Shown: piece by piece, positions 3,351 to 45,967 of the stretch | Layout of the letters: the number at the start of each line of letters is the position of its first letter | Position numbering within the stretch: the first letter of the stretch is position 1 | NCBI GenBank assembly: GCA_949775045.1 | Contig: OX459100.1 | Location: 716,501-780,500, forward strand | Length of the DNA stretch: 64,000 nucleotides | Source of the DNA: Metridium senile | Taxonomy: Eukaryota > Cnidaria > Anthozoa > Actiniaria > Metridiidae | Direction: 5' to 3' | The notes under the pieces: generated by a model | What the model was told of the DNA's origin: nothing | Databases searched by the model: none | Seen by the model: only the letters and a program-made list of their open reading frames with translations | Made by a program: the position numbers and the translations under genes

Positions 3351-3410
3351 CAGCTTAAGTTTGTCGAGTTTAGTAGTGTTTTGGCCGGAAGGTGCAATAC
3401 TGTTTAGATT

Positions 3411-3767
3411 CTATTGAGTAACTTTTAGTCCGCTTGGAACGTCACTGCATAATTTCGATGGAGCTAGTGGTTTCGCTTGAGGACCAGGGTTTACTTCAAT
3501 GTCCATGTAGATGGTTATATCTATTAACGACTCGCTCTCTGAAGTAGCAATGAAAGATTGACCACTTGGACTCCACTTGACAATAGCCCTTTGGTTTCTA
3601 TGACAGCATGAGTAAAGCAATTTGTAGAAGTTGTAGCAATTTACACGCCAAGTATTTAACACGAAATTTGCTTCTATAATATCCGGCGAATTACGAGTAG
3701 GTGTCTTAAGGCACAGCAAAATAGTTGAGGTGTTAAATCGGTGATATTTTGCAATAGTAGGAGCCAA
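3411..3767 (-). CDS. LINE ORF1 or N-terminal leader with a 2A-like ribosome-skipping motif
   Basis: Minus-strand 118-codon frame whose residues 89-96 read DIEVNPGP (bases 3503-3480), matching the D(V/I)ExNPGP consensus of 2A peptides. Such motifs are known at the N-termini of some APE-type non-LTR retrotransposons, where they separate the leader from the downstream protein by ribosome skipping. The rest of the frame has no domain I recognise. A stop at 3411 separates it from the endonuclease frame, in line with a decayed copy. The motif is seen directly; activity is inferred. Confidence 0.65.
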   Translation of the reverse strand: MAPTIAKYHRFNTSTILLCLKTPTRNSPDIIEANFVLNTWRVNCYNFYKLLYSCCHRNQRAIVKWSPSGQSFIATSESESLIDITIYMDIEVNPGPQAKPLAPSKLCSDVPSGLKVTQ

Positions 3768-3802
3768 AAGAAGTGTAAAATAGATGAGTATTAGCGGAGC
3801 TC

Positions 3803-3856
3803 GTTTGTTTGTTTATTGGTTTGTTTGTTTATTTGTTTGTTTGTTTATTTGTTTTT
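3803..3856. repeat. TTTG/TTTA microsatellite
   Basis: Short tandem tetranucleotide run (GTTT/ATTT units) just upstream of the LINE in its transcription sense. Nothing further is recognised up to 4355. Confidence 0.8.
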
Positions 3857-7604: not shown

Positions 7605-7633
7605 ATATGAACTTTTAAAAATGTTTGACTAAC

Positions 7634-10600
7634 CTGTATCCAAACTGGCTTGCAATTAAGAGGCTTTTAAAGCATGCTTGCCAAATCAACTCTCGCCATG
7701 CATCTGGACCATGAACACTCCAAGGTGGTCCAACAGCGTGCAGGATTCTCTTGCATGGAAGTTTCCCAGGAGCAGTATGGGCAACTTGTCCAACGGGTAC
7801 TGGACCAAGACGTTGTACTAATTGGCGTGACTCTATCTGGATCTGATAACCGCCTTGTTTGATTATGGCACCTGCCAAGCCTCCACCATACTCTAGGCAT
7901 TCATTGGCTGCATTGACAATGGCGTCAACGTGTTGTTGTGTGATGTCAGCTTGGTAAACTGACACAATCACACCACTTTCAAGAGTATGTGTTAAAACTG
8001 CAGGTAACTGTGCATGGGTATCTGGTTTTGGTAATACATCACTGGTTGAGGCTGAATTCATCTAAAGTGGTCCCGGTTGTAGTGTCCGCACCGTAAACAG
8101 TGTTGAGGTAAATAAGAATTGCTATTTAAAGTGAGCTTTGCAGCCATACGGTTTAAAATCATGATAAATAAGTACCAGTAGTCATGTATGTGTTAGTAAG
8201 AGACAGTCACTAAAGGATGTTTATTGGTTGGTTATCAAGTCAGTGGTTGTTCAACAACATTTATAGATGCAGGTTAGTGGGTGGGTAGTATCCCTTTCAA
8301 TCCCAACCTATCCTTTCTCATCCCATCCCATCCCATCCCATCCCATCCCATCCCATCCCATCCCATCCCATCCCATCCCATCCCATCCTTTCTTATCCTA
8401 TCCTATCCTATCCTTTTTATCCTATCCTTTTTTTATCCCATCCCATCCCATCCCATCCCATCCTATCCTATCTTATTACATCTTATCTTCTCCTGTCCCA
8501 TCCTATCATATCCTTTTCTATCCAATCCCCTCCTATACTATCATATCCTATTCCATCCCATCCGATCCCTTCCCATTTCGAAAATCAAAGTCGCATTACA
8601 GTTGTTTTTTATCAATATTAACTTCTTTTTACAAGGTTATTTAACATGACATTTGCCTCTATGCTGTGCAAAATTAAATTTGGAAGGAAGTTCAGCAGTT
8701 GAAACTTAATACTATATGTAGTAATGATCTTGTCATTGTCTTATCAATCATTCCTTCTTCTCAACCAATAGCAACATGACTTGGCCTCTAGCAGCCGCGC
8801 TGACACAAAAATGCAGGGGATGTGTGCAAGCACCCCTTAATTCCTTCCCCTTTGCCCACCCCCTTCTTTTCCCCTCATCCCTGATCCCCCAGGAACCATC
8901 ACACAGGCTACAGCTAGTAAACATGGAATGAGAATTATGAAATCTATTTTCACAATTAATGCTGTAGTATTGGTAATTTGGGGCGAACTTATGTGATGTC
9001 AGGTGATATTTCTTTTAGTTTTAATGTCTTTTTTTGGTTGACAATGTTAGTCATTGACATGAGTGGGTTGGTTAAACTAAACTTCAAAAACTCATTAATT
9101 ATTCATGAGGTATTATCACATAAATTATAATATCTTTAACCCTTTGGCGACGGTGATTATTATTGGAGTTTTTATTGTTTTTGATGCGAAAAGTTTAAAA
9201 ATCGATTTCAATTCCAAATAAGGCATTGTCAGGGAAACTGTTGCTGTTTCTAACTACCGATGGCCCAAGGTTTCCAGGAACGCCTTGATGATTTTAGCTC
9301 ATTCAATTCAGTGTCAACACTTTGACCCTGAATTGTGCTAAAATCCAGTTTATAAGTACTTTTTTCAGTCATTTCCTGCTACAAGAGCCCCTAGTAGTCA
9401 TGCATCATTAAGTTTGTCTAGGCGGTGGGGACGCTCTTTTGGACGAATTCAAAGGTGGAAGACGATTTTACAAAGAAAATAGTGCCAGCAGTTATGTCCA
9501 TTGACAATGGCGTCATTGGAGTAAAATCACTTTCCTGGTCGTCTTGTGGTAGATACCAACCAAGGCAATTTTAGTGAGTTTCGCCTTGTAAAGATGGCAC
9601 TAAATTTTAGAGATGAAAAATAACGTTTACAGTGGTTGTTCAATAGCGCAAAAACGCACACTTTAACATTCACCTTAACACAAAAGACAATATATTTCAC
9701 ATTTTTGGATCTCAGATCATCATTTAAGTGTCAGATGTTGCCGAACTAACCACGTAACACAGTCAATTAAATAATAAAGCCCTGACTCTCAAACCAAGAA
9801 GCTAGAATTTTCGAAGTCATTGGTGGAATTCCACCAAGTTTTAACAGGGCCGTCACCAAAGGGTAAAGCAGAACATGCACACAATTCTATTATGATATTG
9901 AAATATGGTATTATGATGGTAACATACCTCGCTGACAGGAGGAGTCTCTTCCTTGGTGTATGGTTCCAAATGGAGTATGGTACCCTTAAAGTTTTGCTGT
10001 TTCTGAAGTATACTTACTGCAACTAGAAATATCATGCATACATTATATAGATTTACATATACATCAACTATACTTGAGTATAATTATTATTTGAATAGAA
10101 TGACTACAGCAATTAGCTGGCAAGACAATGTGATGTTTCCAAGGCAACAATAGGGGTGGACAATCAAAAGTTAAGCATTTCATGCACACAGTATATATAG
10201 TTTGTAATAAAATTGATGACAACAAGATTTATAGATTTAGTCGATGTTGCAATACTACCTAGTGTCATTATCAAGAATATGTTTATAAATAGTATAAATA
10301 GAATTTCTGTTGTTACAGACATTAATCCTATGTGAGTAAAAAAGTAAGACATTTCTTTTTTAAAAACTATCTAAATGTTTCGCATATACAGGGACCGCAT
10401 CTCCACATATACATTTACTATAGCCCCCACTTTTTGCGCCGAAAAAAATAAAAAATAGAAAATAACCAATTATTTGCATTTTTTTTCACAATTTGTTCGA
10501 TACATTTTTGCTTGAAGTTGTATTGCATATTCACAAATTAAATTATTGTTGCATGATTGGGCAGAACTGATTTGTGGGTTTCCTGTAGTTTGTGTGGGAA

Positions 10601-12107: not shown

Positions 12108-12208
12108 GGCAAAGCATTGAAGCTTCTACAGAAATTTAAGTTTTGTAGGACTGGAAAGAGCGTGACATTGCGTGACCGAATATCCCGGCTCCTTGGTGGA
12201 GTAGGGTA

Positions 12209-12800
12209 TAAAACGTTTTGGACCATAGTGTGAACGTACCGTGGCATGAACCAAGTACCATACTATGAACCGAGTACCATAGCATGAACCAAGTTACGTA
12301 CCATGACATGAACCAAGGTACCATGACATGAGCCAAGGTACGTACCGTGGCATGAACCAAGGTACCATGGCATGAACCAAGGTACCATGACATGAACCAA
12401 GTTACGTACCGTGGCATGAACCAAGGTACCATGGCATGAACCAAGGCACGTACCGTGGCATGAACCAAGTTACGTACCATGGCATGAACCAAGGTACGTA
12501 CCGCGGCATGAACCAAGGTACCATTGCATGAACCAAGGGCACGTACCATGGCATGAACCAAGGTATGTACCATGGCATGAACCAAGGTACCGGGCATGAA
12601 CCAAGGTACGTACCATGGCATGAACCAAGGTACCGGGCATGAACCAAGGTATGTACCATGGCATGAACCAAGGTACTGTGGCATGAACCAAGGTACGTAC
12701 CATGGCATGAACCAAGGTACCGTGGCATGAACCAAGGTACGTACCATGGCATGAACCAAGGTACCGTGGCATGAACCAAGGTACTGTGGCATGAACCAAG
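12209..12800. repeat. Left terminal inverted repeat and 18-22 bp minisatellite
   Basis: About 30 units of the core CATGAACCAAGGTACC with variable spacers such as ATGG, GTGG or TACGTACCATGG. Read backwards it gives open frames of repeated PWFMPWYLGSCHGT, which are not genes. A shorter inverted copy ends the element at 30998-31080. Confidence 0.92.
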
Positions 12801-12842
12801 GGAACGGACATGCTTCGCTCAACTGTGTTTACGTATTATATG

Positions 12843-13860
12843 ACTTTGTTGACCTGCCCTGTCAATCAGGGTTTGCGACGTCATATATCACGTGACCCGT
12901 GGGAAAATATTGTATAACTCCTCGTGAATTTATTCGATATTGATCAAACCTGGACTAACACACTTTGCATCACTTTGGTGACTTGCCCTGTCAATCAAGG
13001 TTTGTGACGTTATATATCACGTGACCCGTGGGAAAATATTGTATAACTCCTCGTGAATTTATTCGATATTGATCAAACCTGGACTAACACACTTTGCATG
13101 ACTTTGTTGACTTGCCCTGTCAATCATGGGCCATGACGTCATGTATCACGTGACCCGTGGGAAAATATTGTATAACTCTTCGTGAATTTGTTCGATATTG
13201 ATCAAACCTGGACTAACACACTTTGCATGACTTTGTTGACCTGCCCTGTCAATCATGAGCCATGACGTCATGTATCACGTGACCCGTGGGAAAATATTGT
13301 TTAACTGTTCGTGAATTTGTTCGATATTGATCAAACCTGGACAAACACACTTTGCATGGTTTTGTTGACTTTCCCTGTCAATCATGGGTCATGACGTCAT
13401 GTATCACGTGACCCGTGGGAGAATATTGTATAACTCTTCGTGAATTTGTTCGATATTGATCAAACCTGGACAAACACACTTTGCATGGTTTTGTTGACTT
13501 TCCCTGTCAATCATGGGTCATGACGTCATGCATCACGTGACCCTTTGGAGAATATTGTATAACTCTTCGTAAATTTGTTTGGTATTGATCAAACCTGTAC
13601 AAATACACTTTGCATGACTTTGTTGACTTGCCCTGTCAATCATGGGTCGTGACGTCATGTATCACGTGACCCGTGGTAAAATGTTGTATAACTCCCCGTG
13701 ACTGATTTGTTCGATATTGATCAAACCTTGACAAACACACTTTGCATGACTTTGATTACTTGCCCTGGCAATCATGGGTCATGAAGTCATGTATCGCGTG
13801 AGTTGATGGAACATGTATAACTGTATGTCAATTGAGTGGAATGCTGATATGTTTTCAGCA
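12843..13860 (+). repeat. Left array of 129-bp satellite units (about 8 copies)
   Basis: The phrase CCTGTCAATCA recurs every 129 bases (anchor bases 12861, 12990, 13119, 13248, 13377, 13506, 13635; the last spacing is 132). Most units carry a CRE-like TGACGTCA and, a few bases later, an E-box palindrome TCACGTGA. Units diverge toward the inner end. The inverted counterpart is at 29195-29490 and 30050-30955. Confidence 0.93.
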
Positions 13861-15393
13861 GGGTTTGCTTATACAATTTACTTTTCAAGTCGTTATTTAG
13901 AAGTGGTACTGATTTTATTTAGGATCAATAATTCATTCTTGTTTTATCTTACTATTCCAACAACTCAATTTTAACATCAAAAATCTTTTCAGTTATTCCT
14001 TTTCAGTTTCCTTTTTTGCGACTAACCCATCAAAAACTTTTGTATTCGCAAACTGTGATTGTGTATAAATAATAAACATATGATTTGGTGATAACAATAA
14101 AGAATATATCAAACGAATAAAAAAATAATTATGCATTTTTTTAGTTCATATCGAAAAATAGGAAATCAAAAACAACAATATTTATTTCTTTAAAATCGTC
14201 TAAAACTGATCCCGACCGTAAAGTGATTACCAAATAATTAAAAAATACAAACAAGTACATGGAGGTCAAATCTAAAATGCAGAGAGATGTATTACATTTC
14301 GTTATCATATCGTTAACTGTTAATCTACATTTCCCACCACGAAGTTATTGTCTCCTGACATTTAATTCTTCCTATTAGTACTGTTGACAAGTGATCACGA
14401 CATCGATAATCTAAATAATGTAGAAGGTTGATGATTTTCTCACGAAATTTTATTATCATACCCAATTCTCTTAAAGAATCACATGTCACACATCCAGTAA
14501 AGAATTGATTCGTTCTGGTATTTGCACTATATATAGAGAGAGTTGCAATGAAATGCGCTTGATTTATTTTCAAGCACCCAGTACTCACATGGAAATAAAC
14601 ATTCCCAGGTCGCCCACCGAAATCTTTCCTTCTAATATAATTGACTGTGATCATTGAAGAAATGAAAACTTTGCAAATGTTAATTACTTATTTAACTTTA
14701 AAATGCGATCCAAATTATTTCTCGGTTTTAACAGCAGACCCTACTTTCAACATGGACAGTTTAACTAGTCTGTGACAACATATATATCAACATAATTATG
14801 AAACATGTAACCAGAAGAGTTGGGACGCACCCCATTATTTGTCAGCACTAGATGTCCTGATATGATAGGACGAACTAAATGTCACGAGAGAACTATACCT
14901 TATAGTGGACAATTTAGATTTCAACTCACATTGAGACTTACGGTAAATGGCCCAAGTGTAACCGCAACTAATTTGTTAGTTACTTGGTGAATAACTGTAC
15001 AATCAGGAAAAGATAAGCTGTAAACAACAACGAGTATCATAATCTTGACTTGACTTCTAGATTATTACCGGTGAGTAGGCTTTTCATTATTATTTTACAT
15101 TGCTTTACCATTAATTGTTAAGTAATAATGTATAGCGCGTTTCGTAGAAAGTTAATAATTTCAAAAACTGTGCTTATCTTAAAGCTACGATCGATTGCCT
15201 ATTCATGGAATATCGTGAGAGTGCTGCGGACTATAAGAACGACAGTAGAATTTACTGTCAAAGTTCCGTCGCTCACCTCTTAGATATTTTTCTCATACTG
15301 TTTTTTCTTTTTCTTTTGCATGTATTTTTAGAAAGTTTAGATACCACTAAAACCATGGCTTAACAAATAATACGGCGTCCTTGCATTGTTCTG
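13861..15393. other. Non-coding or unassigned left interior of the transposon
   Basis: AT-rich DNA between the satellite array and the first exon of the large gene; presumably holds its promoter and 5' UTR. The only frame of note is a 109-codon minus-strand frame at 14325-14654 containing CVTC and several other cysteines. It has no match I recognise and no codon pattern that convinces me. Confidence 0.4.
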
Positions 15394-18300
15394 ATGGAGG
15401 AAGGATATCATATATCTATTCTACCTAGAGATGCTGCGTTTCCTACCACATTTCAGAGATGCGGCAATTCTTCTTGTCCATGCGGAGGGAATCTATTTCA
15501 TTGCCATCTGTGCTCTATTAGTTCCAAAAAAGGCACAAAAGAATGCTTACTGAGAAGTCATTTTCAACGTCACTGGAAAAGCCGGATTGTACACGAGGGT
15601 AAGTGATGTTTTTCGCTTTTTACCATTAAGTTTTTCTTTATTATAAAAGTTATAATCCAATTTATTCGCACCTATAATCCTTAACGATGTGTGCTTAAAA
15701 GCGCACACAAGCTTTGTGCTGTTATAATGAACGGACCATTTATTTTATAAACCTTACTATTAGAAGTTAGAAATCACGCATCCTGACTTAATTGTTGCTT
15801 CGCGTGCTTTATAACTATGAGGGCACACATCACGACGTTCTTTTGTGTTACAAGGATCTTTATTCGTAAAGTGGAACTTTGTAGTCAACTGAACGATTAC
15901 AAGGCTAAGCTGAACTAACTCAGTAATACAATGTTGAATACACGATATTCATTAACTTGTTCATCAACAAATTGACAATAATTCGATCTAAAACAGATTT
16001 TAACTTCTATTAACTAGGAATTATTTCGAGGCGTTGTCGATGAATAATAGTTGCAATACTATGTCGTTACAATTTAGAACAGGGTGGGGAAGAGAGGGTG
16101 CCGATCACGAATCACGCGCCGTTTTTCTCATCATTTCACGGATCACGGAGATATGTAAATCGTTTCCACGAATCATAGATTTAGAAATCGCAATGTTAAC
16201 TATGTTACGTTGTTCTACTAGGCAACGTTTTGCACTTGTTAGACCCAGAATCAATATCAACTAAATCTTCCAGATATACAAAGAATGCTAGCAATAAACG
16301 TCTCATTTTACACAAACGTTTATATGAAAAGCTGTCACGTTTTCATCGATTCGGTAACCACGAGTCACGACAGTGAAAATCTGTAAAGTCACGGGTCACG
16401 GGCGAAGATGATTTCACGAATTTCGCTTTTCACGAATCACAGGCGAAATTTAGGGTGAATGACGGCTCACGAAAAACCTCTTCCCCACCCTGTTAGAATC
16501 AGTGACCAACAGTCAGTCAGTGACTTGAATCAGTGACTTGTGTAAGAGAATATCGCAGGCTCATAAACTCTGCGTTGTCATATCAATGTCAATGAAATTA
16601 CTATAATTTGTAACGCAAAATATTACAATTAGCTATCGAGATTCTGTCACGTAACATTTGCATGTTGATCAAATTTGTCAGTATTTAAAAAAGAAAATGA
16701 GGCAGCGTGCTCTATCGCGTTTTATAGGTACTTGAGTTTAACTGTGAGAGTTTGTCTTCGTTACCCTGTTTTCTAGCTCCATTTTGGATGTGTTTTTTTT
16801 TTTTCACGGTATATTTGTTGATCTTTCGATGGCTGTTTTGTTTCTCTTGTCGCTGTTTTTTCGCTTCTCTTCTCTCATCGGATGAAGCTTTGGCTTTTGT
16901 TGACAAGATTGATTCCTTTAACAGTTTAAATATATAGGTTTTGAGCTTTAGAACGGTTTTAAATCTAAAACTGACAGAGATTTCAAAGATTGTAAAATTT
17001 TCAGCTTTCCGTTCTTGGCATTGAACAAAGCTACTTGAATGTTGGCTGTCACATTTTTGACCAATCAGAGAAGAGTTTTACTGTTCTTGAGCCAATCAAA
17101 ATTAGCGTTATATCGCGATTGCATCAAAGCGAAAATTTCAAGAACAAAATAGATTTTTGCAAGAACACATTTCGCTTTTACTATGTAAAACACTCGAAAA
17201 TGATCAAAAAGCACTCGCTTTCAGTTCGTGCTTTTTGACATTTTCTCGTGTTTTCAACTGTCCATCGTGCAGTTATAAACCACGGCTGAGCCTTAGTTAT
17301 TTGGTAATTAGAATCCACCAACCTGTGGTCTATCACAAATCCTGCAATCTCATTGGCTACGCAACCGGGTATTATTAGTGATAGTACCCGCAATGATGAC
17401 GAGAAAAAACCCGGTTTTCAAAGAGAGTTTTAAATGCGTTTTTAAGAAATAAAGTATTATTATTATTATTAAAAACCATGGCGGCAGAATCGCGAATTTG
17501 TAGATGTTTTAGATAGTTCCATGACCCAGAAGACAGAAAAACAACAGTAAAAAATAATAATAATAACGATTTCACAAATTTTGCGATTTTTTCGCGTTCA
17601 ATGTAGACTTTTATCAAGATTATAAATTAATTAATTTAACTTCCCATCTTAATTCAAACAAGCTGTAAGTAAATTTACAGCGACCCAGAGAAATATCTGC
17701 CAATATATAATATATAAATATCTGATATTATTTCAAAACTCAGAGTTATGGCAATAAGTAATCGCGAGATCTGTTACAAGGGATTAAAAGAAACCCAAGA
17801 TAAACAAATGAGCTCAGTTATATTCTGCAAGTTGGACTCAATTATCCCATGTAGTTGTTGTTTTCAATCGAGATTATTCTTCAGCCTAAAAAGGTGAACG
17901 ACTTGAAAGCTTGCATACTAAAGTAGGTTATTTTCGGGTTGGAATTTGGCAGATACTTCTCTGGGTTGCTGCCATAATTAGTAGTTGATTAATAATAATT
18001 TTGATTTATATCAAATATTTTAATAGTTTTCATTCCGTTTTCAGATAAGACGATTTTGAGATGCAACCTTGACTGTCCAGGTTCTGATAACAGGAGTCAT
18101 TGGCACTGTTGTTATTGCCCTTTAAAATTCATTCGAGAAGCAAAAATGCAAAGTCATCTTCTAAGACACCTGCGCCCCTTAAATAAGCCTTTCATTAAAA
18201 CTTTTGTTGACGGACAAAAAAATAACTCTAATTCTTCTGCTTTTTCGCCATGCACGGAAAACTTGCCACAAGAATTGCAACTCAAAACGCCGTCCGTAGA

Positions 18301-21300
18301 CCAATCTGAAAAGTGCTCTGAATGTCAAAAATTATATCCAAACAGAAAAGCCCTTCAAAGACATGTCAGGGAGCAGCACAAAAAAAAAGTGGAAGGTTTG
18401 ATTAATGCAGGCAAATATCTGCATGGTATCTGCGTTGATGTGAAGAGAGGTATATTTTTGATTGCCAGATCATTTGGAGGTACTGGACATCCCATCCACT
18501 GTCAACATACGACAAACGAGACTTGTGAACCAGTGTACACGGCGTGTGAGCTGGATGATTGTAGAGAGGTAACAAGAGTAGAATGTAACAGTGGCCAACC
18601 AGCATATGAATGCATCCACTTGAGAAGCATTCAGTATAGCAAACCGTACGAAGCGACCCAGTCCCTGCTAGATTCTACTCTTGAAGATTTAACCGGAGGA
18701 AAAGTGTCCTGGTTCAAAGCAGGCCGAAAAGAAGAATGTATGGCCCACCGTGACAGCGCCCATGTCGGCAACTTTCCTTTAGTTGTGCGGCTATTCCCAG
18801 ACGTGATATGCTCTAAACGGTTTATCCATCTTTCTGTGTGGGACGGTAAAGTTCACTATTATTCACGGTTTGGCCGTGTTGTGGTGACGTACGATAGTGG
18901 ACTAAACAGGTGGATGTGTGCTTGTTGCAGGAGTAGAATCAACTGTATACACAAATCCGTTGCAAAGTGGTTTCTATACCAGACCGATCCCCAATCATTA
19001 CTTCTCGACTCTACAGCTGAAGCTGAAGATAGTGACGGCGCTGAAAATAACGACCAAGAAGTGGACAAGGATAAATTATGCATTACTACAAAAACATACC
19101 CTCCCACAGGTTCAACCCTAGAAGAAATGGTAAAATATATTTACAACTTCAAAAAGATACCACCAGCAATCTCCAAAGAATTTGTGGAGATCGATTTGCC
19201 TCCATCACCTAATGTCTTCATACCTAGTGAAGACGAATGCTGTGGAGTCCCTTTGTCAGGACCTTATGAGATCACAAGAAGAGCAATAATCGTTACTACG
19301 ACAAGCGTTGTGCGGGGTAATCAGATTTATGTTGGATTAATGTTGTGGTACACGAGAAAATGTTTTTTTTTGTCCGCAACTACTTTACTAACATGTCCCG
19401 TTCCACTTCTAGGTGCAGCAACATTTTTCAAACGTTGCGAACTTTGTCAAATGGTGTTTCGATACCAAGACATTGCTCACGGAGTGCATAACTTTGACGA
19501 CAGACACTTGTTCTCGCTTCGCTTCATGTTTTTTTTGCGAGCGTTTATGAAGGTAAGACGGAATAAACAATAACAACAGCAAGGCTGATACAAAAATGTA
19601 AAGGGGTGTCTCAATTGCAAATGAAGGATTCCTATGGTGTCAGGGGGTGTCCAGTCCTTAAATATCTTAAATAAAGTAAGGCGGTAATTGCGGCGCTAAG
19701 GGGGTATCCAGTCACACTAGCACAACAATAATCATAACATTTTTAATTTTGTTTTGCAGGAAAACACGGCAGTGGGAAGAAGTGTTTCTGCGCTAAAGAG
19801 CATTCACGAGGAGCTTTCTTGCATACCCGACAGTGTTTTCAGAAATGCTTACTTTCATTTTGAGGCACTGACGGATCACAAATACAACTACTTCTGCTAC
19901 AAGTGTGGACATCACCCGCCCATTCTGATATGGGATTTGTGCAAGAAGGGATGCTTTTCGTTGGCACGTATGTATTTGCTTATTGTCACAGTCGAAAATT
20001 CATATGAAATCTTAATTGTATATGGCTGTTTACACCACCACATTCATTGTAATGTTACAGTTGTACAAATCCCATTCCCAACACATTTATAGAAAAGGTA
20101 TGTTTTCCCTTGCAATGACATATTAACAATGCACATTTACTTTTTATTATAACAGTGGACGATTTAGAAGTACCGAAAGTATGTCATGAAAATGACACAG
20201 TTGATATGGATGAGTTCTGGAACAAGATTCACCAAAACATCATGTGCAAAGGCCTTTTACACGGTAAGCAGGACACCAACCGAGGCAGTTACTTCTCACG
20301 CCTAAATTTTGGAATACCATTTATGCACACAAGGCCATGATCATCAGCACGATGTACCTCTGTTCACAATTCGTTGTATCTCGTGGGTAGTTGATACCTT
20401 TTCGAGTAAATCTGACACGATTAGAGAGCATTTGTTTTCTCCTTTTAGGTAAACCAAACAACCCTTTTGCTATTCTCCCCTCATACACATTCTGGGCTCC
20501 CTGGATTGGTCCATTTACGAGGAGTAATTCGAGAGTTTACAATACCGAATACAGGAAAGTTGCAGGTTTACCTGTTGATAACCAAGGCACACCACAACAA
20601 ATTGCGGATACGTTTTCCGAAGAGGATCTTATGGAGATGATGCAATTTTCTCAGGTTCAATTTTATTCTTTCATTTTAAAAAGCAATTACTCATATAAAG
20701 CAAATTAACGTAATGAATAGCCATTTACACGATAATTAATTTAAATGTTATTTCTGCTCTATTGACATTAGTTAAAGACACTCCAGAAAACATGTCGTGC
20801 TCTTGGTCTCAGCAACACTACCACTATGTCGAAGTTGGAATGTGTTGCGCTTTTACGGAAGAAGCTTGGCGTTCCGGATAACTTCAAAAAGATCTTTAGC
20901 AAAATCTGGGGGGCGTCAGGTAAGAGTTCTTCACAAGAAACTACTTAAGTATTTAGATAGGTCGACATAATTAAGTGGCACTTAAAAATGAAAAAAATGT
21001 ACATATCATGTGTTCCTTATCTGTATTCAAGGTGGTTGGGCATCTGGTTCATGTCCACATTTGGTTATCTATTGCTTGAAGTTTGTTCTTCGGGGCGAGA
21101 GCCCTCGCGATTATGCCGATATTCTCAGATCACTCAAGTATCCGCCTAATATTAATATATCTGACATCCCACATCGTTTGGCAAGGCACACCAACAACAC
21201 AGTTCCAGGATTTTTCAACCCAAACGACGGGAGGCTGTTCCCACCAAATGAAAGCAACATAAGAAGCTACAAAGACGATTGCCTTGGCTCGCAAATACTT

Positions 21301-24300
21301 TTGTCGTTGGCAACATCAAGTCCCTTCCAGATAACGTTCATCCAACAACCGGCCAAAGAGATCGTTACTCCTTAAGTGACCGGTTTCATGAACGCAATTC
21401 CTCCGACAGAGCAGATGTCTTACGCCGCACAACTCTAGTTCCCCAACTTAACGGTGTAGTAAATACAGAGGCCGAAGAGCAATTCCATAGGTCAATAAAC
21501 TGCTCCAACTATTCGTTGAATAATATGAAACCTGTAACTCATATGTTCATGATGAGGCTAAAAATACACCTCCACAACGAAGATCGCAACAGTGCATTCA
21601 AGAGTATGCTTGAAAGGACGTTCAGTGCCCATAGTGGAGTGAAAATTGAAGTGCAGTTAAATGGCCTTGGAAAGATGCAAAAAATAAAAGGCAGTCATAC
21701 TGGATATAAACCCAAAGCTGTTTGCGATCCTGGTGTTTCAGATGCAACTCCAACTATACCTGAAAATGCTCACCGTGGCAGTGGAGAACAACAGATACCT
21801 GAAACCTGTCTTTTTGAAACGGGAAGCCAACAGCATCCAAAACCTGATACAAGTGAGAGGATAAATGTAAGTTCAACTTATCATTGATAATGAAAGAGTG
21901 ATGCTCAATTTTGAATTCATATATTAACTTGAAATGACCAGCATGAAGGAATGTACTTCAAAGTCACAATGGCTTTATTTATTTATTTTTTCAGGGAGAA
22001 AAGAAAGAGCAAATTAACAAGAACCCTGTTGGTGTACAAAACATTGCCCAAAGCTGTTGGTTTGGGGCTCTTGTTAGTTGTTTGGCGCATACACCACTTG
22101 CTGACTGGTTAATCGGTTAGTAGGGTTCCTTCTGGTTTAGTTATGCAATTTTTCGTGCATTTCAAATAACTGATCTTTTTGTTCTTTTTTTCCTATCAGA
22201 ACGAGGCAAGAACAAGGGATCGCTGCTTGGGCAAATGTCGGACCTTATGATAAAGCTAAGAGGTTGTAAGATCGATGGACAATCATTAAATCCAAACTAT
22301 GCGCTGGTATGTTTAATCTATAATGAATTCCAGCTATAAGCTATATGAGAGAGACAGGAGAAGAAATTAAAAGAGGGAATGTGGAACATTGGATGGTCTT
22401 TGACCCCAACTACTGACTTACTACTTCGTGCTTGATTTTTTTTTAATCTCTGTAGGGATTATTTCACAGCCTTGAGGAAAGTCTCAAAATCGGGCAACAA
22501 CAGGATGCGCATGAAGCGTTAACCTTAATACTTTCTGCCATAAACCCGGTAAGTGTGCTATATATCAGCCTACTTTTGTATATAATAGTAAGCGGAATTG
22601 AGTTGACATTAAAAATGTTTTGTAAAGCACTAAATACATCGGTGTGCTTGCTTTATCTTTACTATCTTTGTTGTCATGTCTTTTAAGGAAAATTCACCAG
22701 TCTATCAACAACATTTGCATGCTTGATATGTAATGAGGTAAAGTATGTTTTTAAAGAATTTATAGCATTGCATTCCACTCTATTATTATACAAAACGATT
22801 AACGAAATACTTTTTGTGGAACAATGACAAGGTTTGCGACACAACAGAGGTGTGGGATCATTTTTCATTGAGTTTGGAAATGAGGAAATGCAGTCTTCAA
22901 GCGTGCATAGATGAAAACGACACCAAATATTGTCCAGGAGAAGTATTAAAGTGAGTGATGTTTTTTGTTGTTAAACCGATTTATCAGTTACTTTGACGTT
23001 TGCTATACCATAATGAGGCCGGCTATTTTTGCAGAGAATGTGCTTCATGTAAGAAAAACACGACCCACAAGAAGTGGATGACTTTAGTAGAGGAACCAGA
23101 ACTGCTGTTGCTACATGTCAAGCGTTTTGAAAATAGTGGCAAGAAAAAGTCTGAAGAACTGGATGTTCCTGAGTGAGTATTACTTTTCCAAGTGTTATCT
23201 TGCATTGCATGCTATTGCTTTCACAGTCATATACACAAAACATTCTGCTTTGGATTGTATGAATCCACTCCCCCGGCAGCTTCGTCATATTTACAGTCTG
23301 AACACTCGAACCATGTAAATGTAATTCTTTGTTTGCCATAATATATTGTAAATTGTGACTTATTTCATTGATATTTGTGTGTAAACAATACGAAAGGAGG
23401 AGAATACAAGGCAAAGCCCCAATTGACATCCAAGCCCTTCAGGCTTCAGCCAATCCAAGACGTCCTTCTAAAGAATATAATGTATCCATTTGATGATTAA
23501 ATTTTCTTTGATTTATATCTTATAAAAAAATAGTTAGTGTCCGCACTGCAAAGTAATTGTTCTCTTATCAGCGTTTCCTTTTTTTCTTGTTTAATTGTTC
23601 AACGCAATAGGAGTCTTAGCATGAAGGCCCTACTAATGACATCTCCGCAAAAGAGCAAGTACATGTTTTCAGCATGTGTAGTAAGTAGGTCCTCAGCTAG
23701 TCCACATGACTTAATTAAATGCTTTTTTGTGTGTGTTTAAAAATTGAAATTAACAGCGTATACCATTTTCCTTGTTATCGAAGCTGCATACAGGTAGCAC
23801 AACAAAGAGTGGGCATTGTAAGTATCGTCTTTTGTTGTTGTTGTTTTATTTTTATTTTGTTGTAGTTTTATTTGTTTTATTCTATTTTCTTGTTTTGTGT
23901 GATTGTGTGCGTGTGTGTGTGTTTTTGTTTGGTTGGTTATGTCAAATGAAATAGCATCTTTTTTAAATTTCCATAGATACCGCATTAGTAAAGAGAGAGA
24001 ATACTTGGTTTATTGTGGATGATGAATCTGTCACTGCAATCACCCTTGAAAAGGCCCTAGATTTTTGCAAGGTAATTCGCAACGTTTGTAATGATCTATA
24101 TAGTGGCTCATGAGTAGTGTCCATGGACAATGATGTGTTGGTGCTGTGCGGGTCTAATGTGTAATGCGACGGTGTTTATGTATCACTTAGTTTCAATTTT
24201 TTTTGGGAAATTCTTTTGCAAAGTCGACTTTTTTTGGGGGGGGGGGGGGGGGGGATGCTGCTTTTAAGGCAGAGTATCATTTCCATTCCACTATTTAAAC

Positions 24301-27300
24301 GGTTCGTTCGTATTTGTACTTATTAGGATAAAGCCTACCTACTCTTATACAAGAGAAGCAACGAAACCAATCGTTGTGTTGCAGATATCGAAGGTGACTT
24401 GATATGAGATATAACATGAAATGTAACATCAGGTCGTAATTAGAAATTTCGAAATTTTTTTTTTTTTGGAATTGAGGTTCTTCTATGGAAGAGGTCATAC
24501 AGGTAGAAAATGTAAGTGTACATACAAAAAATGTAAAAGTTAAGGCTTCTTTCGCTTTTCGACGTGAGTTTCTGACATTGTTTTTAATCAGATGAACAAC
24601 ACAAGCGAGAAAAATGTACCTGACAATGATTCAAAAGAGACGAAGAGTGGTAAGTGGCAAAGAACTCATAAATCTTAAATACTTTGAAAGCTCAATATAA
24701 ATTTATTTTAGGAGACAGCAATCTTGCGAAACCAAACATTCAAGTACTTCAAATAAGCGAAAAACAAGTGAAAATGGTAAGAGTTTGTGGCATTTGAGAG
24801 TATGTTATAAAACAAATCCTTCGACCTTTGTGTTAAATATACTTATTTCAAGATACTAATATTTTTTTCCCATGGATACTATCCAAGACAAATGAGAAGA
24901 TCGCATCATACGAAACTGATCAAGTTAGTAAATTTGATGGCTCGCACATAAGAAACGGCATGGTTGCGGATGATATGAGGAAACTCATTGAGTGGGATGG
25001 ACATTTGAATGGTTTGGTAAGTGCCTAGTCGTTTTTTTTTTTTTTTCAAACGGAACGTCCATTTGCTCAATGCCACTTCTGAGTTTGTGCATGACGGCTC
25101 CTCATTTGTTTACCCAACAGGTAGTCAACGAATATATTCGAATTGTTGTAGAGGCCGTTAACCGTTCAAAGGTATCGTACACTACACTATGAAGCAGATT
25201 TCTTATGCATGCGGACAGGACACTGCACGCGCATGTACGGCTTACAGTTATGGTGTGTTTGCAATTTTTGATTATATGCACCACGGCATTGATGCGGCCA
25301 CAGGAGGACGTGGTCATTGTCATGACCATACGAATCTACTCATAACACAGCATCTTGATAATATCAAGCCATAAGGCCATTTGTTTTATACACAGAGAGC
25401 TGGCAAGATTGGTTTTCTGTCCAGTTATGACTTCTCAAAGTTGAGGAGAGGACAGGTGGTTTCTTACAGTACCGAAGATTTTCTCGAAGCTTTAAATGTA
25501 AGTTGATACGTCCTTCTGAACAATGCATGCCATTTGTACTTTGTGAGAAATGGCTAATATTAAGTAATCGTATTCCAAATATCTGTTTTTTATTTATGTA
25601 CAGAACGATTTAACCCGCCAAGATAAAGTTCTTGTCCCCGTACATGTTGAGCTTGAAGGCAACCAAGACCATTGGTGCCTTCTGGTAAATACTCTTTATG
25701 GTGTAATTGTCCGGGAAGTAGGGTGCCTATGGATAGGTTTCGGTATACAGCGATTCGGATAATGTATTCATGATCAGAACACAGCATGCGCAGTCTCCAT
25801 CTTTGTATTTAACAATTATTTAATGAAGGCAAAGTGATTATCGTCGAATATTTAACGAAACCGCGAGTCTTCGAGCAAATATTCGCCGATAATCACGGAG
25901 CCTGAGGTACAAGTGAATTTAAATAAATAACGACGAAAAAAAGTTTTTTTTAATTTCAAAATAAAAATGGTAATGCTTTGGTAAAGCGCCGGTCGGTTTT
26001 GAGCAACCAAAACAATGGCGGAAAAAATCCCGATTTTCGGATTCGTGGACCATGAGGGCGAGAGGTGTAATTGTTTTAGTATAAACCAACAAGTATTTCA
26101 AACCTTGCCATATTATGAAAGAAAAATACCATTTAACGGCTGAAAATAGAATAATTTCAGTGTTAAAACTACTATATATATTTTTGAACTGGCTTTAACA
26201 ATCCAACTGAAGATTCGTGTGATGGCGTCAGTAGCGCGAACTCTTCAAGAAAATTTCAACGACAAAATGTTTTTCTAGTTTTTCTAGTTTGTCGCGTATT
26301 ATTTAACTTTTTTTAACTTTGCCGCGTATTGTGTATATTTGGGGATAGCATTTCCTTTCATTTCAACGATTTCTTCGTCCGTGACTTCTGCACCATTTTC
26401 AAAAAAAATGTTATAGTCTTCTTTTTTAAGCCCTTTTTAAACTTCATTTCTTGCAGTTGATGGACATTGAAAAGAAGTCTTTGTTTTACTTTGATACCCT
26501 TGGTAAGGAAATTGGGTTTGAAAAGACCATAACAACCATCAAGTAAGAACTCGTTATGTGAATACTGGATGTTGTGGTGTGTCCAGGTTTTAATGTTTCT
26601 TTCTTTCTTAGGCAAACGTTATCTACGTACATCATGGACTTCGACATGGTTAATTGGACAGAGCACTCAATTAAGGTACATGCCATACTAATATAAAAAT
26701 ATAATGATAATGATAATGTATTTATATAGCGCACTTTCTATGTGTATATATTCAAATGCGCTTTACACATTGTAGTTAGCTGTTAGTAGTTAGTATATAT
26801 TAGTGTAAGTGTAGGCCTTTCACTGAGGATGGTCGTGACCTGCGTCCTCAGTCGTTCTTTTACGTCCCCCCGATTAATGGTTAGTGTGTGAGTGGCGAGA
26901 CGGGACCTCCGATTTAACGTCCTTATCCGAGAGGACGCGAAGCCTAACAATTATAAACCGAAATAAATACAAAGTTATAACATTCTCCTCAACTCTCCCC
27001 TGAGTGATGGTCCGGCTGGGGTTTGAACCCCCGACCTCCCGGTTAACAGGCCGTGCTCTCCCAACTGAGCTAACCCGTTAATCGGTTATAACTTTTTTTT
27101 TTATATAACTTTTTGTGGAGTTTCCAAAACATCAGTGAATTATTAAAGTTGGATATTGTTTTTGCAGGATGATCCCCGTTTTCCTGTGCAAACCAACTGC
27201 ACTGACTGCGGAGTTTTTATCGGTTTGGTAAATAATTACTCATTTTTCACATTTGGCATCATTTAACATGCATGCATTGCAAATGTCCGTGCGCGGACCA

Positions 27301-28951
27301 ATCAAATGTATTTTTTATATTGCAGTATGCAGTTTGTATATTTCTAAAAGACGCAATTCCTTTCAGTCAAGTAAGTGATATATTTTATCATGAAATGTCT
27401 TGTGCTCTAACAATTTTTATCTACTGTAATTTTTGTTTTTTTATACTCTAATCATAGACTGACCTCCCAAATCTGAGAAAGCAGATGGCGTTCGAGATTC
27501 TTAGAGGGAGATTAATGTAAGTAGACTACGATTTACTTATCTATTACATTTGATACAAAACTGTATCCTTATTTCAACAAATGTAGGGATGCCCTTGAGT
27601 CACAACTCGGCCAAATGTTTCAGCCAGTTCAAACGAGGCCTAAACGAAATATCAAGGTAAAGGAACAAAGGAAATTACTGATATCGATTGCTTTCTAAAA
27701 ATAATTTAAAACGTAATTTGTTTCACAGAATGAATATAATACTAAAACTATTTTATAACACTGGGCTTTCTTCTTGTTCAGCGAAAGTATAAGTCTTCTG
27801 AGTACGACCTGTCATACCGCCTATCAAGAAAGCAAAAAGAATCGGGGGTACGTAAATTTTTGCTGCCTCATGGGTATTTAATAAAGTGTGCAAGCCTTTG
27901 TTTTCGTCATCAAAGATTTTTCATATAATTGTCATTATAGGAAACCAGTGATCTACCAAAGTCAGAGCAGGAAGAGACTGCACATGTACAGTTACACAGC
28001 GAGGATGACAGTAATGAAGGTAATCGTTTAAGAACAATTGAATTATACTAGTATTAAGCTAGACTTAAATTAGTAGCAATTTCTACTCTTCCATTGTCTC
28101 AAACAGAGCCATTAGAAGACCATGGTCATCTACAAAAGTCGACGGTGCAAGAAGAGACAGCACAGTTAGACAGCGAAGAGGACAGTAATGGAGGTAATCA
28201 TTTAAAAAAACTTGAGTTACACTATTACTAGGACTTCAATTAGTAGCAATTTATACTCTTCCATTGTCTCAAACAGAGCCATTAGAAGGTCATCTACAAA
28301 ATTCGGTGCAAGAAGAGACAGCACAGTTGGACAGCGAAGAGGACAGTGATGAAGGTAATCATTTAAGAAATTGTATTGAAAAGTATACTTACACTCTAAG
28401 TAGCAATTCATAATATCTCCTTGTCTCAAACAGAGCAATTAAATGAGGAAGACCGAACATTTGTAAAAGAAAAGAGAAGTTATCTGGAGTCATTGTTGTC
28501 CCTTGGAAAAGAAAGCAGCTTGATACAAAACGAAAGAATGACAGCTTTCAAAATCCTTTCAAAAAGTTACTTCAAGGAACTAAATCATACAGAGTTCTCG
28601 ATTCTTGTCAAGCATTTTGGTGCTTCAAAACTACTAGCATTCCAGAACGAGCTCCTCCGTACCTTCGAAGAGGAAGTACCAAAAGTTGAGTTGACTGAGA
28701 TCGAACTTGTAACCGGTTTTAGAAGAAAACGCCTCCGAATAAGTAGTGACAACATTGCTTATTTTCTTCTGCCAGAACTCATGGTACAATATGAGATAGA
28801 CATGAACAATTTAAGCTACGCTGACGCGATGGAAACATTATTCAAAAGGAAAGGCCACACTGTTTTCTTTGCTGCCATAAATGAGGAAACAAAAACAGAA
28901 ACAAAAATTTCGCGACGCAAACCAAAGTACCCTAGACGTCTAAAAAAATGA
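15394..28951 (+). CDS. Zinc-finger/SWIM HMGXB3-KDZ-like protein with USP and ULP1 protease domains
   Basis: About 35 exons, ~1,900 codons. Exons (approximate): 15394-15598, 18045-19316, 19413-19552, 19760-19967, 20156-20263, 20449-20654, 20772-20919, 21032-21866, 21995-22115, 22200-22306, 22456-22548, 22688-22737, 22832-22950, 23035-23172, 23397-23481, 23612-23680, 23784-23817, 23977-24071, 24592-24649, 24712-24776, 24888-25016, 25121-25171, 25396-25497, 25604-25684, 26457-26542, 26612-26675, 27168-27227, 27326-27370, 27458-27516, 27587-27656, 27782-27847, 27941-28019, 28107-28192, 28277-28354, 28434-28951. The first exons give paired Cys/His fingers (HWHCCYC) and a SWIM finger CxCx6CxH at 18915-18951. 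Exons to 21866 carry CYKCGHHPP, WGASGGWASG, RGESPRDYADIL and DRFHERN blocks like HMGXB3 and related transposon proteins. Then come USP and ULP1 domains and an acidic tail. Three one-base frame mismatches (near 21275, at the 22548/22688 join and at the 23481/23612 join) mean decay or assembly indels. Confidence 0.65.
16080..16492. mobile_element. MITE with CAGGGTGGGGAAGAG ends and TTAGAA duplication
   Basis: Terminal inverted repeat CAGGGTGGGGAAGAG at 16080 and its inverse ending at 16492, flanked by direct repeats TTAGAA at 16074-16079 and 16493-16498. The interior repeats CACGAATCACG and TTTCACG in both orientations. It sits in intron 1 of the large gene, so it jumped into the transposon after the latter existed. 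Confidence 0.85.
21995..24071 (+). other. USP (C19) deubiquitinase domain inside the large gene
   Basis: Spread over about ten exons. The cysteine box reads NIAQSCWFGALVSCL with the catalytic Cys codon at 22055-22057. The QQDAHEALTLIL block at 22488-22536 is the usual USP helix motif (QQDAxEF). A Cys4-type finger follows from ACLIC (22688-22737) to ECASCKK (23035). The LLLLHVKRF strand is at 23101-23130. The histidine box reads SGHYTALVKRENTW and is split by the intron between 23817 and 23977 (His codon 23814-23816), with VDD following. All three core elements of a USP fold are present, so the intact ancestor was probably an active ubiquitin protease. Confidence 0.85.
24888..27656 (+). other. 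ULP1 (C48) SUMO-protease-like domain inside the large gene
   Basis: The catalytic set is complete. The exon at 25604 gives QDHWCLL (His codon 25670-25672), the next gives LMDIEKKSLFYFDTL (Asp 26463-26465), and 27168-27227 gives PVQTNCTDCGVFIGL (Gln 27189-27191, Cys 27207-27209). The upstream WDGHLNGLVVNEYI segment matches the substrate-facing start of the fold. Every exon join in this stretch keeps frame, unlike the USP and transposase-like parts. ULP1 domains are often found fused to transposases in plant and animal elements. Confidence 0.87.
26700..27088 (-). mobile_element. tRNA-derived SINE, minus orientation, in an intron of the large gene
   Basis: The head lies at the right. On the minus strand it reads GTTAGCTCAGTTGGGAGAGC (A-box), an Asn-like GTT anticodon loop and GGGGTTCAAACCCC (B-box). 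The body then runs to a tail with the TTTATATAGCGCACTTTCTA block and TCATTATCATTA repeats near 26703. The body and tail show it is a SINE and not a working tRNA gene. Confidence 0.75.
27941..28354 (+). repeat. Tandemly duplicated acidic exons
   Basis: Three consecutive short exons (27941-28019, 28107-28192, 28277-28354) encode near-copies of QEETAQLDSEEDS, and their flanking introns share TTCCATTGTCTCAAACAG before the exon and GGTAATC after it. The repeat period is about 170 bases. All introns are phase 1, so copies can be added without breaking frame. Confidence 0.85.
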
Positions 28952-28979
28952 GATCAAAACTAAATGATAAGTTGAACAG

Positions 28980-29160
28980 TTAGAGTACAAACATTAAAAA
29001 TGTGCAACATAAATACCACTAAATACTGCTAAATTATGCTAATTCTATTGTTCTCTATTGTTTAATCAACACTATTTAGTGGTAAATAGTGCAAAGTATT
29101 GCACACTTTTAGTGTTTGTACTCTATCAACAACAAATTTGTCAATTGTGTAAATAAATAG
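28980..29160. terminator. 3' UTR with imperfect inverted repeat and AATAAA signal
   Basis: Just after the stop at 28951. GAGTACAAACATTAAAAATG (28983 on) pairs with its imperfect inverse ending near 29133, and an AATAAA lies at about 29152. These could give a 3' hairpin and polyadenylation of the large gene's mRNA. Confidence 0.45.
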
Positions 29161-29194
29161 ATATCATTTTACTCAAATAAATTCAAATAGTACA

Positions 29195-30955
29195 CAACAT
29201 TTCCCACGTGATACATGACGTCACGACCTATGAGGTCAGCAAAGTAATGCAAAGTGTGTTTGTCCAGGTTTGATCAATATCAAAACAAATTCACGAAGAG
29301 TTATACAATATTTCCCCACGGGTCACGTGATACATGACGTCACGACCCATGATTGACAGGGCAGGTCAACAAATTCATGCAAAGTGTGTTTGTCCAGATC
29401 CGATCAATATCGAACAAATTCACGAAGAGTTATACAGTATTTTCCCACGGGTCACGTGATACATGACGTCATGACCCATGAAGTACATGGTTTGAATCTT
29501 CCGTTGAGAGTGCTCGATACGATGAAGTAGAGCAAAATATATGTGAGGGTTGGAGTAAATATGAATTCGTAGTTGTATTTACTCCAACCCTCACACACAT
29601 ATTATATATATTATTTTCGTGAAAACAAATACTACTTAATAAACACTAGGATAACATAAATTACCGCACCTCGATAGAACAATAGCACTATTGCAAATAC
29701 ATAACAATACTCTAATTATAAACCACAACAATAGATTACACTACAATTATAGCGCCTCAGGTATATATAGATTAAAGTAAAGGATTATTATTCATTAAAG
29801 TCTGTCTGAAGATCGCGTAAGGGTGAAACTCCGAGTAACAAAAAAAGTGATGTCTTGTCGTTAATCTACCTACAATCTATAACGCTCTACATTTTTAATG
29901 TATTGAGCACTTTACCGTTAGAATAGACACATCCAGATATATATATATCTTTCACATTTTTATTAAGTAGCTATCCATTTCATAAATTCATGTAAATAGT
30001 ACGTAATTCAGCCAGTGGCTGCAATGTCTTATTTTAATAAACTATCTATCTCCGAAGTGTGTTTGTCCAGGTTTGATCAATATCCAACGAATTATCGAGG
30101 AGATATACAGTATTTTCCCACGGGTCACGTGATACATGACGTCATGACCCATGATTGACAGGGCAAGTCAACAAAGTCATGCAAAGTGTGTTTGTCCAGG
30201 TTTGATCAATATCTAACGAATTATCGAGGAGATATACAGTATTTTCCCACGGGTCACGTGATACATGACGTCATGACCCATGATTGACAGGGCAAGTCAA
30301 CAAAGTCATGCAAGGGGTGTTTGTCCAGGTTTGATCAATATCTAACGAATTATCGAGGAGATATACAGTATTTTCCCACGGGTCACGTGATACATGATGT
30401 CATGACCCATGATTGACAGGGCAAGTCAACAAAGTCATGCAAAGTGTGTTTGTCCAGGTTTGATCAATATCTAACGAATTATCGAGGAGATATACAGTAT
30501 TTTCCCACGGGTCACGTGATACATGACGTCATGACCCATGATTGACAGGGCAAGTCAACAAAGTCATGCAAGGGGTGTTTGTCCAGGTTTGATCAATATC
30601 CAACGAATTATCGAGGAGATATACAGTATTTTCCCACGGGTCACGTGATACATGACGTCATGACCCATGATTGACAGGGCAAGTCAACAAAGTCATGCAA
30701 GGGGTGTTTGTCCAGGTTTGATCAATATTCAACGAATTATCGAGGAGATATACAGTATTTTCCCACGGGTCACGTGATACATGACGTCATGACCCATGAT
30801 TGACAGGGCAAGTCAACAAAGTCATGCAAAGTGTGTTTGTCCAGGTTTGATCAATATCTAACGAATTATCGAGGAGATATACAGTATTTTCCCACGGGTC
30901 ACGTGATACATGACGTCATGACCCATGATTGACAGGGACGGGCTAGTCAACAAAG
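29195..30955 (-). repeat. Right array of 129-bp satellite units, interrupted
   Basis: Inverted copies of the left array. About two and a half diverged units occupy 29195-29490 and about seven highly similar units occupy 30050-30955, again with a 129-base period (for example 30156 to 30285). TCACGTGA and TGACGTCA recur in most units. The outer block is far more homogeneous than the left arm, suggesting recent expansion. Confidence 0.93.
29491..30049. other. Unrelated insert splitting the right satellite array
   Basis: This segment has no satellite unit. It opens with a perfect 19-base hairpin, GTGAGGGTTGGAGTAAATA at 29543-29561 pairing with 29576-29594 around a 14-base loop, and continues as AT-rich DNA without a gene. 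It may be a small mobile element or leftover internal sequence. Confidence 0.5.
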
Positions 30956-30984
30956 TCATATAAAAGGTAAACAAAGTTGAGCTA

Positions 30985-31105
30985 AGCATGTCCGTTCACT
31001 TGGTTCATGTCATGGTACCTTGGTTCATGTCATGGTACCTTGGTTCATGCCATGGTACCTTGGTTCATGCCACGGTACGTTCACGCTATGGTCCAAAACG
31101 TTTTA
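30985..31105 (-). repeat. Right terminal inverted repeat of the transposon
   Basis: From GTCCGTTCACTTGGTTCATG through four or five CATGGTACCTTGGTT units to CTATGGTCCAAAACGTTTTA at 31086-31105. It is the inverse of the left end. The minisatellite is much shorter here than on the left. Confidence 0.85.
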
Positions 31106-31570
31106 ACCTTAGAAGCCTTGGTGAGACGCCTGATAAATAAATAAAAAGATCATGCATTTTTATTAGGGAATATTTTTAAATTCGACTGATTATTCTAGAT
31201 TGGACTTAAAAAGAATATATCTTTTTTGAAAATACACAAAAAGTGTTAAATAAAATCATGACAACCACTGCAAATAAACAACTACATATTTTATTCTACA
31301 TCCGTTTATTAAAACGGAGAAGATGTAAGAATTGTATTTTAAATATGGAAAATATTTTGAATTCATAAGACATAATCATCAGTAAGCCAAAATTTTAATT
31401 AGTAAAGTGAAAAATACATCAGAAAAACAATGATGAAAAGTGTTTCGAAAGTACAGTGTAAAAATAAAAGCGATCTGTTTATACTAAAAGTGCAAGCTTC
31501 CATTTTCGCAGATTTATTTATTTTTTCTTCTAAAACAGAATCGTAAATTGAAAATAAATTTATAATCTTA
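31106..31570. other. No gene recognised between transposon and retroelement
   Basis: AT-rich DNA without a credible frame. It was presumably part of the region upstream of the macro/Deltex genes before the insertions. Confidence 0.5.
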
Positions 31571-41755: not shown

Positions 41756-41925
41756 CTATATTATATGGGATACCTTGTCTATAATTCGATCACTTTCTAC
41801 ATCAAATGCGAAACCTTAACTATAATTCGATCACTTTCTACATCATATGGGATACCTTATCTATAATTCGATCAATTTCTACATCATATATGGGATACCT
41901 TATCTATAATTCGATCACTTTTCAC
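41756..41925 (+). repeat. ~46-bp tandem repeat, about four copies
   Basis: Units contain CTATAATTCGATCACTTTCT and CATCATATGGGATACC. They lie just past the stop codon of the kinase gene, in its likely 3' UTR. Confidence 0.9.
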
Positions 41926-41971
41926 TGACAGGGAACACGAAAAGACGCAGTCCTTGTCTTGTTTTAGGTGT

Positions 41972-45927: not shown

Positions 45928-45967
45928 TGCAGTTCTCGGTAAAGGAGAGTGCAAATAACGACTCAAA

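Follow-up and report, generated by a model that had tools for sequence, protein, structure and literature searches.

An 18,917-bp stretch of the genome of the sea anemone Metridium senile, positions 12199-31115 of the window analysed here (64,000 nucleotides, C6:716501-780500 of a 389-Mb assembly of 169 contigs), is one DNA transposon. As to what it is and how it is built, it very probably belongs to the animal CxC4/SWIM/SAP branch of transposases that is associated with KDZ (Zisupton). A preliminary description of this DNA, made from its letters alone, had proposed a single transposon with limits at 12209 and 31105. That it is one transposon is borne out by the same ends in other copies, by 8-bp duplications, and by the combination of ends, arms and gene. 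As for the limits, an inverted repeat is indeed found at 12209 and 31105 (45 of 46 printed bases identical), but the true ends lie 10 bp farther out on each side, because it is there that the target-site duplications of three copies place them. The outer 10 bp, GAGTAGGGTA on the left and ACCTTAGAAG on the right (CTTCTAAGGT when read inward), are poor inverted copies. Inverted ends together with duplications of fixed length and insertion-specific sequence, perfect over 8 bp in three of four two-ended copies, put the element in class II, and a cut-and-paste mode would follow from that class.

A search of the genome with the left end (301 bases) gave 45 matches, and eight stretches around such matches were examined; copies with the right end alone could escape a search of this kind. 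Four copies have both ends, namely the one in the window and three on contig C1, at 21.07 Mb (L009), 64.79 Mb (L015) and 59.91 Mb (L014). The first three of these carry perfect 8-bp duplications, all different (CCTTGGTG, CCTCATGA and CACATTCC). The expectation that copies with the same ends would turn up elsewhere holds for L009 and L015 on another contig. In L009 (4,968 bp) window position 15664 is joined to ~29352 and exon 1 is still present, and in L015 (3,014 bp) position 14955 is joined to ~29415; both have the ends and arms of the window copy, whereas the gene is gone entirely or but for a small remainder. We read them as recent non-autonomous relatives that arose by internal deletion. 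Their identity to the window copy over the single-copy interior 13802-14955 (1,154 bp) is 99.74% and 98.96%, respectively, which, together with their own perfect duplications, argues that the family moved recently, and these short copies offer recent material for study. L014 is a 613-bp copy with both ends and one 129-bp unit, whose left end is altered and which has no matching 8 bp.

Contig C4 holds a degraded copy (L016) with the left end only; the 19.8 kb examined there contained neither another GATTAAAG nor a right end. Pieces of the transposase lie at most 350 bp from that left end, so that arm and gene are linked at a second place. The transposase DNA of this copy is ~88% identical to that of the window, and over 231 codons (45 were left out, 44 gapped and one a stop) the nonsynonymous and synonymous divergences are dN 0.059 and dS 0.180. 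The resulting dN/dS of 0.33 suggests that selection had acted on the transposase protein before the copy decayed. C14 holds a fragment of a right arm from which the end is missing (L048). On C7 (12159000-12198600, L010-L013) a solo left arm is repeated within a local segmental duplication; these arms contain no gene, their minisatellite reaches ~3 kb in one copy, and at the start of the first of them stands the left end of the element (93.6% over 47 bp). Since the minisatellite has grown to ~3 kb there, a stranded arm can seemingly begin to behave like a satellite, as is reported for Tetris (PMC4079207), and the C7 arm is perhaps an early stage of the birth of a satellite from a transposon end.

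The arms themselves are inverted copies of each other at three levels, as the preliminary description had noticed, and self-BLAST places this far above chance; the tandem arrays were called with Tandem Repeats Finder (Table 1). Positions 12717-13742 pair with 31078-30055 (E 0.0; 88.4% over 1,031 columns), as does the end 12205-12317 with 31108-30999 (87.8%, E 8e-30). The inner part of the terminal repeat, GTACCGTGGCATGAACCAAG, and the consensus unit of the minisatellite, GTACCATGGCATGAACCAAG, are one base apart, so that the terminal repeat appears to have been multiplied into the minisatellite. Consensus sequences of the 129-bp unit in left and right orientation differ at 10 of 129 positions (35 full units from the copies, 17 left and 18 right). 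When two such units were used as query, the genome gave 31 matches, counts of this kind being lower bounds: 20 lie in the three duplication-flanked copies, eight in partial copies (four on C7, two on C4, one on C14 and one at C1:59.91 Mb), and three are short fragments that span at most 112 query bases. Thus 28 of the 31 are inside element copies or their fragments, and the worry that the arms might be ordinary free-standing satellite is answered. All three duplication-flanked copies have retained both kinds of repeat on both sides. At the level of sequence, the element shows that satellite-like arrays can move along as the termini of a transposon. We infer that the arrays are multiplied transposase-binding sites. 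The 129-bp consensus unit (arms 12840-13801 and 29233-30937) also contains TGACGTCA and CACGTG, with exact counts of five and seven in the left arm, eight and nine in the right arm, and one each in the 15.4-kb interior; these might serve as promoter or enhancer sites.

Between the arms lies a transposase gene, for which 21 relatives (P0001-P0021) were found at E ≤ 0.001 among 6119 candidates. The named ones are from fish, a crinoid and a soft coral (P0011 is unnamed), and the top-scoring one is that of the soft coral Dendronephthya. The whole transposase aligns with eight relatives at 32-46% identity, which together with the window model makes nine aligned members; the SWIM motif (C360-C362-C369-H371) and the conserved core appear as invariant columns, in line with homology over the whole protein, and D630, D839 and the Glu of NTEAEEQ (E744) are conserved by alignment. 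CxC4 is matched in eight of the nine members at E ≤ 1 (best 2.3e-12), and SAP in six, the window model not among them. Four members (fish) have C48 and one (crinoid) has OTU, located in the C-terminal part.

Exon borders were picked by the analyst at GT-AG sites. The joined plus-strand exons give 836 open codons, a frame change at ~21250-21275, and then 201 codons up to the donor at 21867, whereas 29 and 56 stops interrupt the two remaining frames of this joined sequence. A 96-bp intron without stops (19317-19412) came to light by comparison with the eight aligned relatives, seven of which continue through this place with no insert; the eighth, P0012, is without the whole region. In the alignment with the relatives, a gap of a few residues falls where the frame changes, and for that reason we regard it as a small deletion and not as an overlooked intron. 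The transposase of the window copy is therefore probably broken, and the copy would not be autonomous, being either dead or in need of help. All recognisable coding exons are on the plus strand, so that the assignment of everything coding to one plus-strand gene is partly borne out; the last exons may share a transcript with the others. The preliminary description had noticed neither the frameshift nor the protease that follows.

Directly after the transposase, and to judge from its sequence, is a nearly whole domain of a ubiquitin-specific protease (USP, peptidase C19). A 306-residue assembly from the exon pieces, with X at two joins that are out of phase, matches Pfam UCH at 1.9e-25 over profile positions 1-241 of 254, and human USP36 at 4.8e-13, its Cys, His and Asp boxes falling in register. 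Either damage to the domain or wrongly drawn exon borders may account for the phase of these joins. Donor 21867 and the protease acceptor 21995 match in splice phase, and the first protease exon has no in-frame Met before the Cys box; apparently, the protease is fused to the transposase. Among fusion-length proteins, the search with the protease region gave a single weak match, P0022, a protein without any KDZ-linked domain according to Pfam, and the USP domain alone gave no relative among 1005 candidates, by a method that needs shared five-residue words. In the searches made by this word method no other USP-bearing relative was found. Likewise, all three loci of distant relatives examined in the host (C1:39.34, C1:33.69 and C3:18.17 Mb, ~30 kb each) contain pieces of transposase, but none matched a USP at E ≤ 0.01. 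Farther downstream, the C48-like region of the window scores E 0.035 with Pfam, under the cut-off, and gives no match with a shorter assembly; a C48 profile based on fish reaches E 0.0071 at 27147, but an unrelated frame scored better (0.0033).

How far, then, does the element resemble KDZ? Pfam lists CxC4 as associated with KDZ transposases, and the 8-bp duplication has the length known from Zisupton, although hAT elements likewise make 8 bp and the length is not exclusive (PMC12730594). The earlier suggestion of a KDZ/Zisupton-like element is supported by the CxC4 region (weak in the window and clear in the relatives), the SWIM-like CxCx6CxH motif, SAP in the relatives and the duplications, but the KDZ core profile PF18758 is unmatched. 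Several results weigh against the placement and the fusion proposed here. The CxC4 match of the window (E 7e-05, 23.1 bits) is under the curated cut-off of 26.9, and at E ≤ 1 PF18758 is found in none of the nine members of the alignment. When profiles were compared, a PF18758-type protein of the same genome gave no significant result (E 0.27), nor did a second comparison with PF18758-type frames (0.05, where the reversed control gave 0.91). A fold model made for a fish relative (mean predicted local distance difference test score 68) has no PDB match at E ≤ 0.001, and among the 50 fold matches shown of 140, those above 0.5 probability were few and SAP-like, none RNase H-like. No second full-length copy of the 522-amino-acid frame was found in the genome, and hence no intact coding copy was seen. 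Lastly, it is splice phase alone that joins protease to transposase, and the two later protease joins are out of phase as drawn. By eye, the motif order PCGIV, YD and NTE..EQ agrees with PF18758-type frames, which we count as a lead only; the host genome has genes of this type at 21 places outside the element, and the window is not among these 21 matches. On balance, its sequence files the element under the animal CxC4/SWIM/SAP (HMGXB3-like) family, and by analogy we would say that it works like a KDZ element, leaving the narrow PF18758 sense aside.

A mechanism can be proposed along these lines. The zinc fingers and SWIM motif of the transposase would contact DNA, and the Asp/Asp/Glu core would cut. 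The protein would bind the terminal repeat, and as the inner half of this is the minisatellite unit, the array would amount to multiplied binding sites; excision of the element would be followed by insertion at a staggered 8-bp cut. Short copies would move in trans. As for the fused protease, its targets would be the transposase itself or, at the insertion site, proteins of repair or chromatin, all of which it would strip of ubiquitin; like proposals exist for the Ulp1 and OTU parts of other transposons. The roles so assigned to protease and arrays, taken together, are put forward tentatively. With similar reserve, we picture a lineage with a transposase-borne USP, where relatives independently carry a domain like that of SUMO proteases (C48) or another one of deubiquitinase-like type (OTU), in which removal of ubiquitin would be a repeated, needed step and binding sites would have multiplied into mirrored satellite arms.

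It is a real possibility, one we rate at roughly a third, that the element is as described while the USP and C48-like exons are a captured gene or remnants without a role in transposition, and that the arms came from unequal exchange and bind nothing. Two joins within the protease are out of phase, other USP-bearing relatives did not appear in the protease searches, and copies with few units still moved (2.4 and 3.9 units of 129 bp in the arrays of L015). Against this, the transposase donor and the protease acceptor match in phase, and the first protease exon has no in-frame Met before the Cys box; relatives have proteases in their C-terminal part, and both kinds of repeat persist on both sides of all three duplication-flanked copies. 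This explanation disputes only the inferred parts of the one we prefer, and the confidences in the two overlap. We find it improbable that the element is instead a Tetris- or Galileo-like foldback that trapped a transposase-like gene and is mobilised by a transposase encoded elsewhere. Such elements typically have long inverted arms that contain tandem repeats (PMC4079207), and the gene here is frameshifted, but an 8-bp duplication fits KDZ (PMC12730594, PMC12810828), the enclosed gene itself is from a KDZ-linked transposase family, and the degraded C4 copy likewise has both arm and transposase gene. That an inverted host satellite surrounds an HMGXB3-like host gene, with no transposon at all, is hardly conceivable and was rejected: gene-free minisatellite arrays of up to ~3 kb do exist in the segmental duplication on C7, but the first of those arms starts with the element's own left end, three copies have perfect 8-bp duplications, and 28 of 31 matches to the 129-bp unit are confined to element copies or fragments.

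Table 1. Features of the transposon and its insertion site, in window coordinates.
Feature	Position	Strand	Remarks
Left target-site duplication CCTTGGTG	12191..12198	.	same as 31116-31123
Whole transposon	12199..31115	+	18,917 bp; ends set by three different 8-bp duplications in three copies
Left terminus	12199..12254	+	outer 10 bp GAGTAGGGTA not inverted; terminal inverted repeat starts at 12209
Left minisatellite	12236..12784	+	period 20-44, unit ~20/44 bp; inner part of terminal repeat serves as first unit
Left 129-bp satellite array	12840..13801	+	7.4 copies (Tandem Repeats Finder)
Exon 1, zinc-finger-like N terminus	15394..15598	+	start codon inferred
Exon 2, zinc finger (Pfam below cut-off), SWIM-like CxCx6CxH motif	18045..19316	+	
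Exon 3, end of CxC4 region	19413..19552	+	
Exon 4, first conserved Asp (IWDLCKKG)	19760..19967	+	
Exon 5	20156..20263	+	
Exon 6	20449..20654	+	
Exon 7, at the SAP place of relatives	20772..20919	+	window itself without SAP match
Exon 8, remaining transposase core	21032..21866	+	frameshift between ~21250 and 21275
First USP exons, Cys box (IAQSCWF) and QQD box	21995..22548	+	in phase with donor 21867
Remaining USP: KRF, SGHYTA, VDDES	22688..24071	+	two joins out of phase as drawn; borders approximate
C48 (Ulp1)-like pieces: WDGHLNGLVS, VLVPVHV..HWCLL, DCGVF	24837..27250	+	weak; limits approximate
183-amino-acid open frame, no known domain	28400..28951	+	
Right 129-bp satellite, inner block	29233..29481	-	1.9 copies (Tandem Repeats Finder)
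Right 129-bp satellite, outer block	30055..30937	-	6.8 copies (Tandem Repeats Finder)
Right minisatellite	30999..31092	-	~4 units (Tandem Repeats Finder)
Right terminus	31060..31115	-	terminal inverted repeat reaches 31105; outer 10 bp ACCTTAGAAG not inverted
Right target-site duplication CCTTGGTG	31116..31123	.	perfect 8-bp match to the left one

The late part of the element holds further repeats. Pieces of a dispersed repeat lie at 26040-26255, with several more on C7, and it appears that another repeat has entered the element there. On the minus strand at 26874-27077, a translated stretch reads VSSVGRARPVNREVGGSNPSRT, which we take to be of the kind often read from sequence like that of transfer RNA (tRNA); ARAGORN and Rfam found nothing in it, and the tRNA scan and Rfam at gathering scores gave no match in the window. 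Directly before the 183-amino-acid frame, a 161-bp tandem repeat (27988-28370) repeats a coding-like phrase (SQTEPLE...QEETAQLDSEED) and perhaps represents duplicated exons.

Outside its limits, the element is flanked by macro-domain frames, at 7615-8061 (minus strand) and within 38035-52558. The latter region includes RING and Deltex C-terminal frames (39815-40318 and 52019-52558) and, on the minus strand at 42241-43911, one macro domain that is joined with a protein kinase. With the exception of the RING matches, these domains have Pfam E-values of 1.2e-15 or better, and the frames look to us like a duplicated DTX3L/PARP-like cluster, as we presume them to be. At 1721-3812 (minus strand) lies an endonuclease-reverse transcriptase-like remnant (Exo_endo_phos_2, E 2.3e-05, under the cut-off, for 1721-3073), probably a piece of a non-long-terminal-repeat retrotransposon.

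Among known systems, Zisupton/KDZ elements share with the element a multi-exon transposase with cysteine clusters (PMC9297572, PMC12730594, PMC12810828). KDZ1 of Cryptococcus is ~11 kb long, with 241-bp inverted repeats and 8-bp duplications (PMC12810828), and the duplications vary across the group: 4-8 bp in KDZ2 and KDZ3, 7 bp in Kyakuja families, and none detected in Pristionchus (PMC9297572, PMC12730594, PMC12810828). Unlike KDZ, the element lacks a PF18758 match and has a USP and arms of two nested tandem repeats. A platyfish Zisupton isoform carries an F-box (PMC12062965), and the literature searched, in which the founding papers figured only as cited, yielded no KDZ-like element reported to have a USP. 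Long inverted arms with internal tandem repeats are what the element shares with Tetris and Galileo, and the repeats of the latter are reported to hold extra transposase-binding sites (PMC4079207). In contrast to the element, Tetris apparently encodes nothing, its repeats form long free arrays as well, and neither Tetris nor Galileo shows a link to the transposase family described here (PMC4079207). The closest counterpart of the gene is the HMGXB3-like CxC4/SWIM/SAP family of animals (P0001-P0021), with the same SWIM motif and conserved Asp and Glu; its aligned members have C48, OTU or no recognised protease, and none was found with a USP. With the USP beside the transposase, a third type of protease joins the C48 and OTU known from this part of the relatives. 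Ginger1 also has a transposase with a C-terminal protease, there Ulp1 or OTU, although its transposase is of the integrase type and belongs to another family, and in Trichomonas a peptidase C19 is joined to a transposase_11 domain (PMC2836005). By comparing relatives, the part of ubiquitin and SUMO removal in transposition, suggested for Ginger (PMC2836005), becomes testable.

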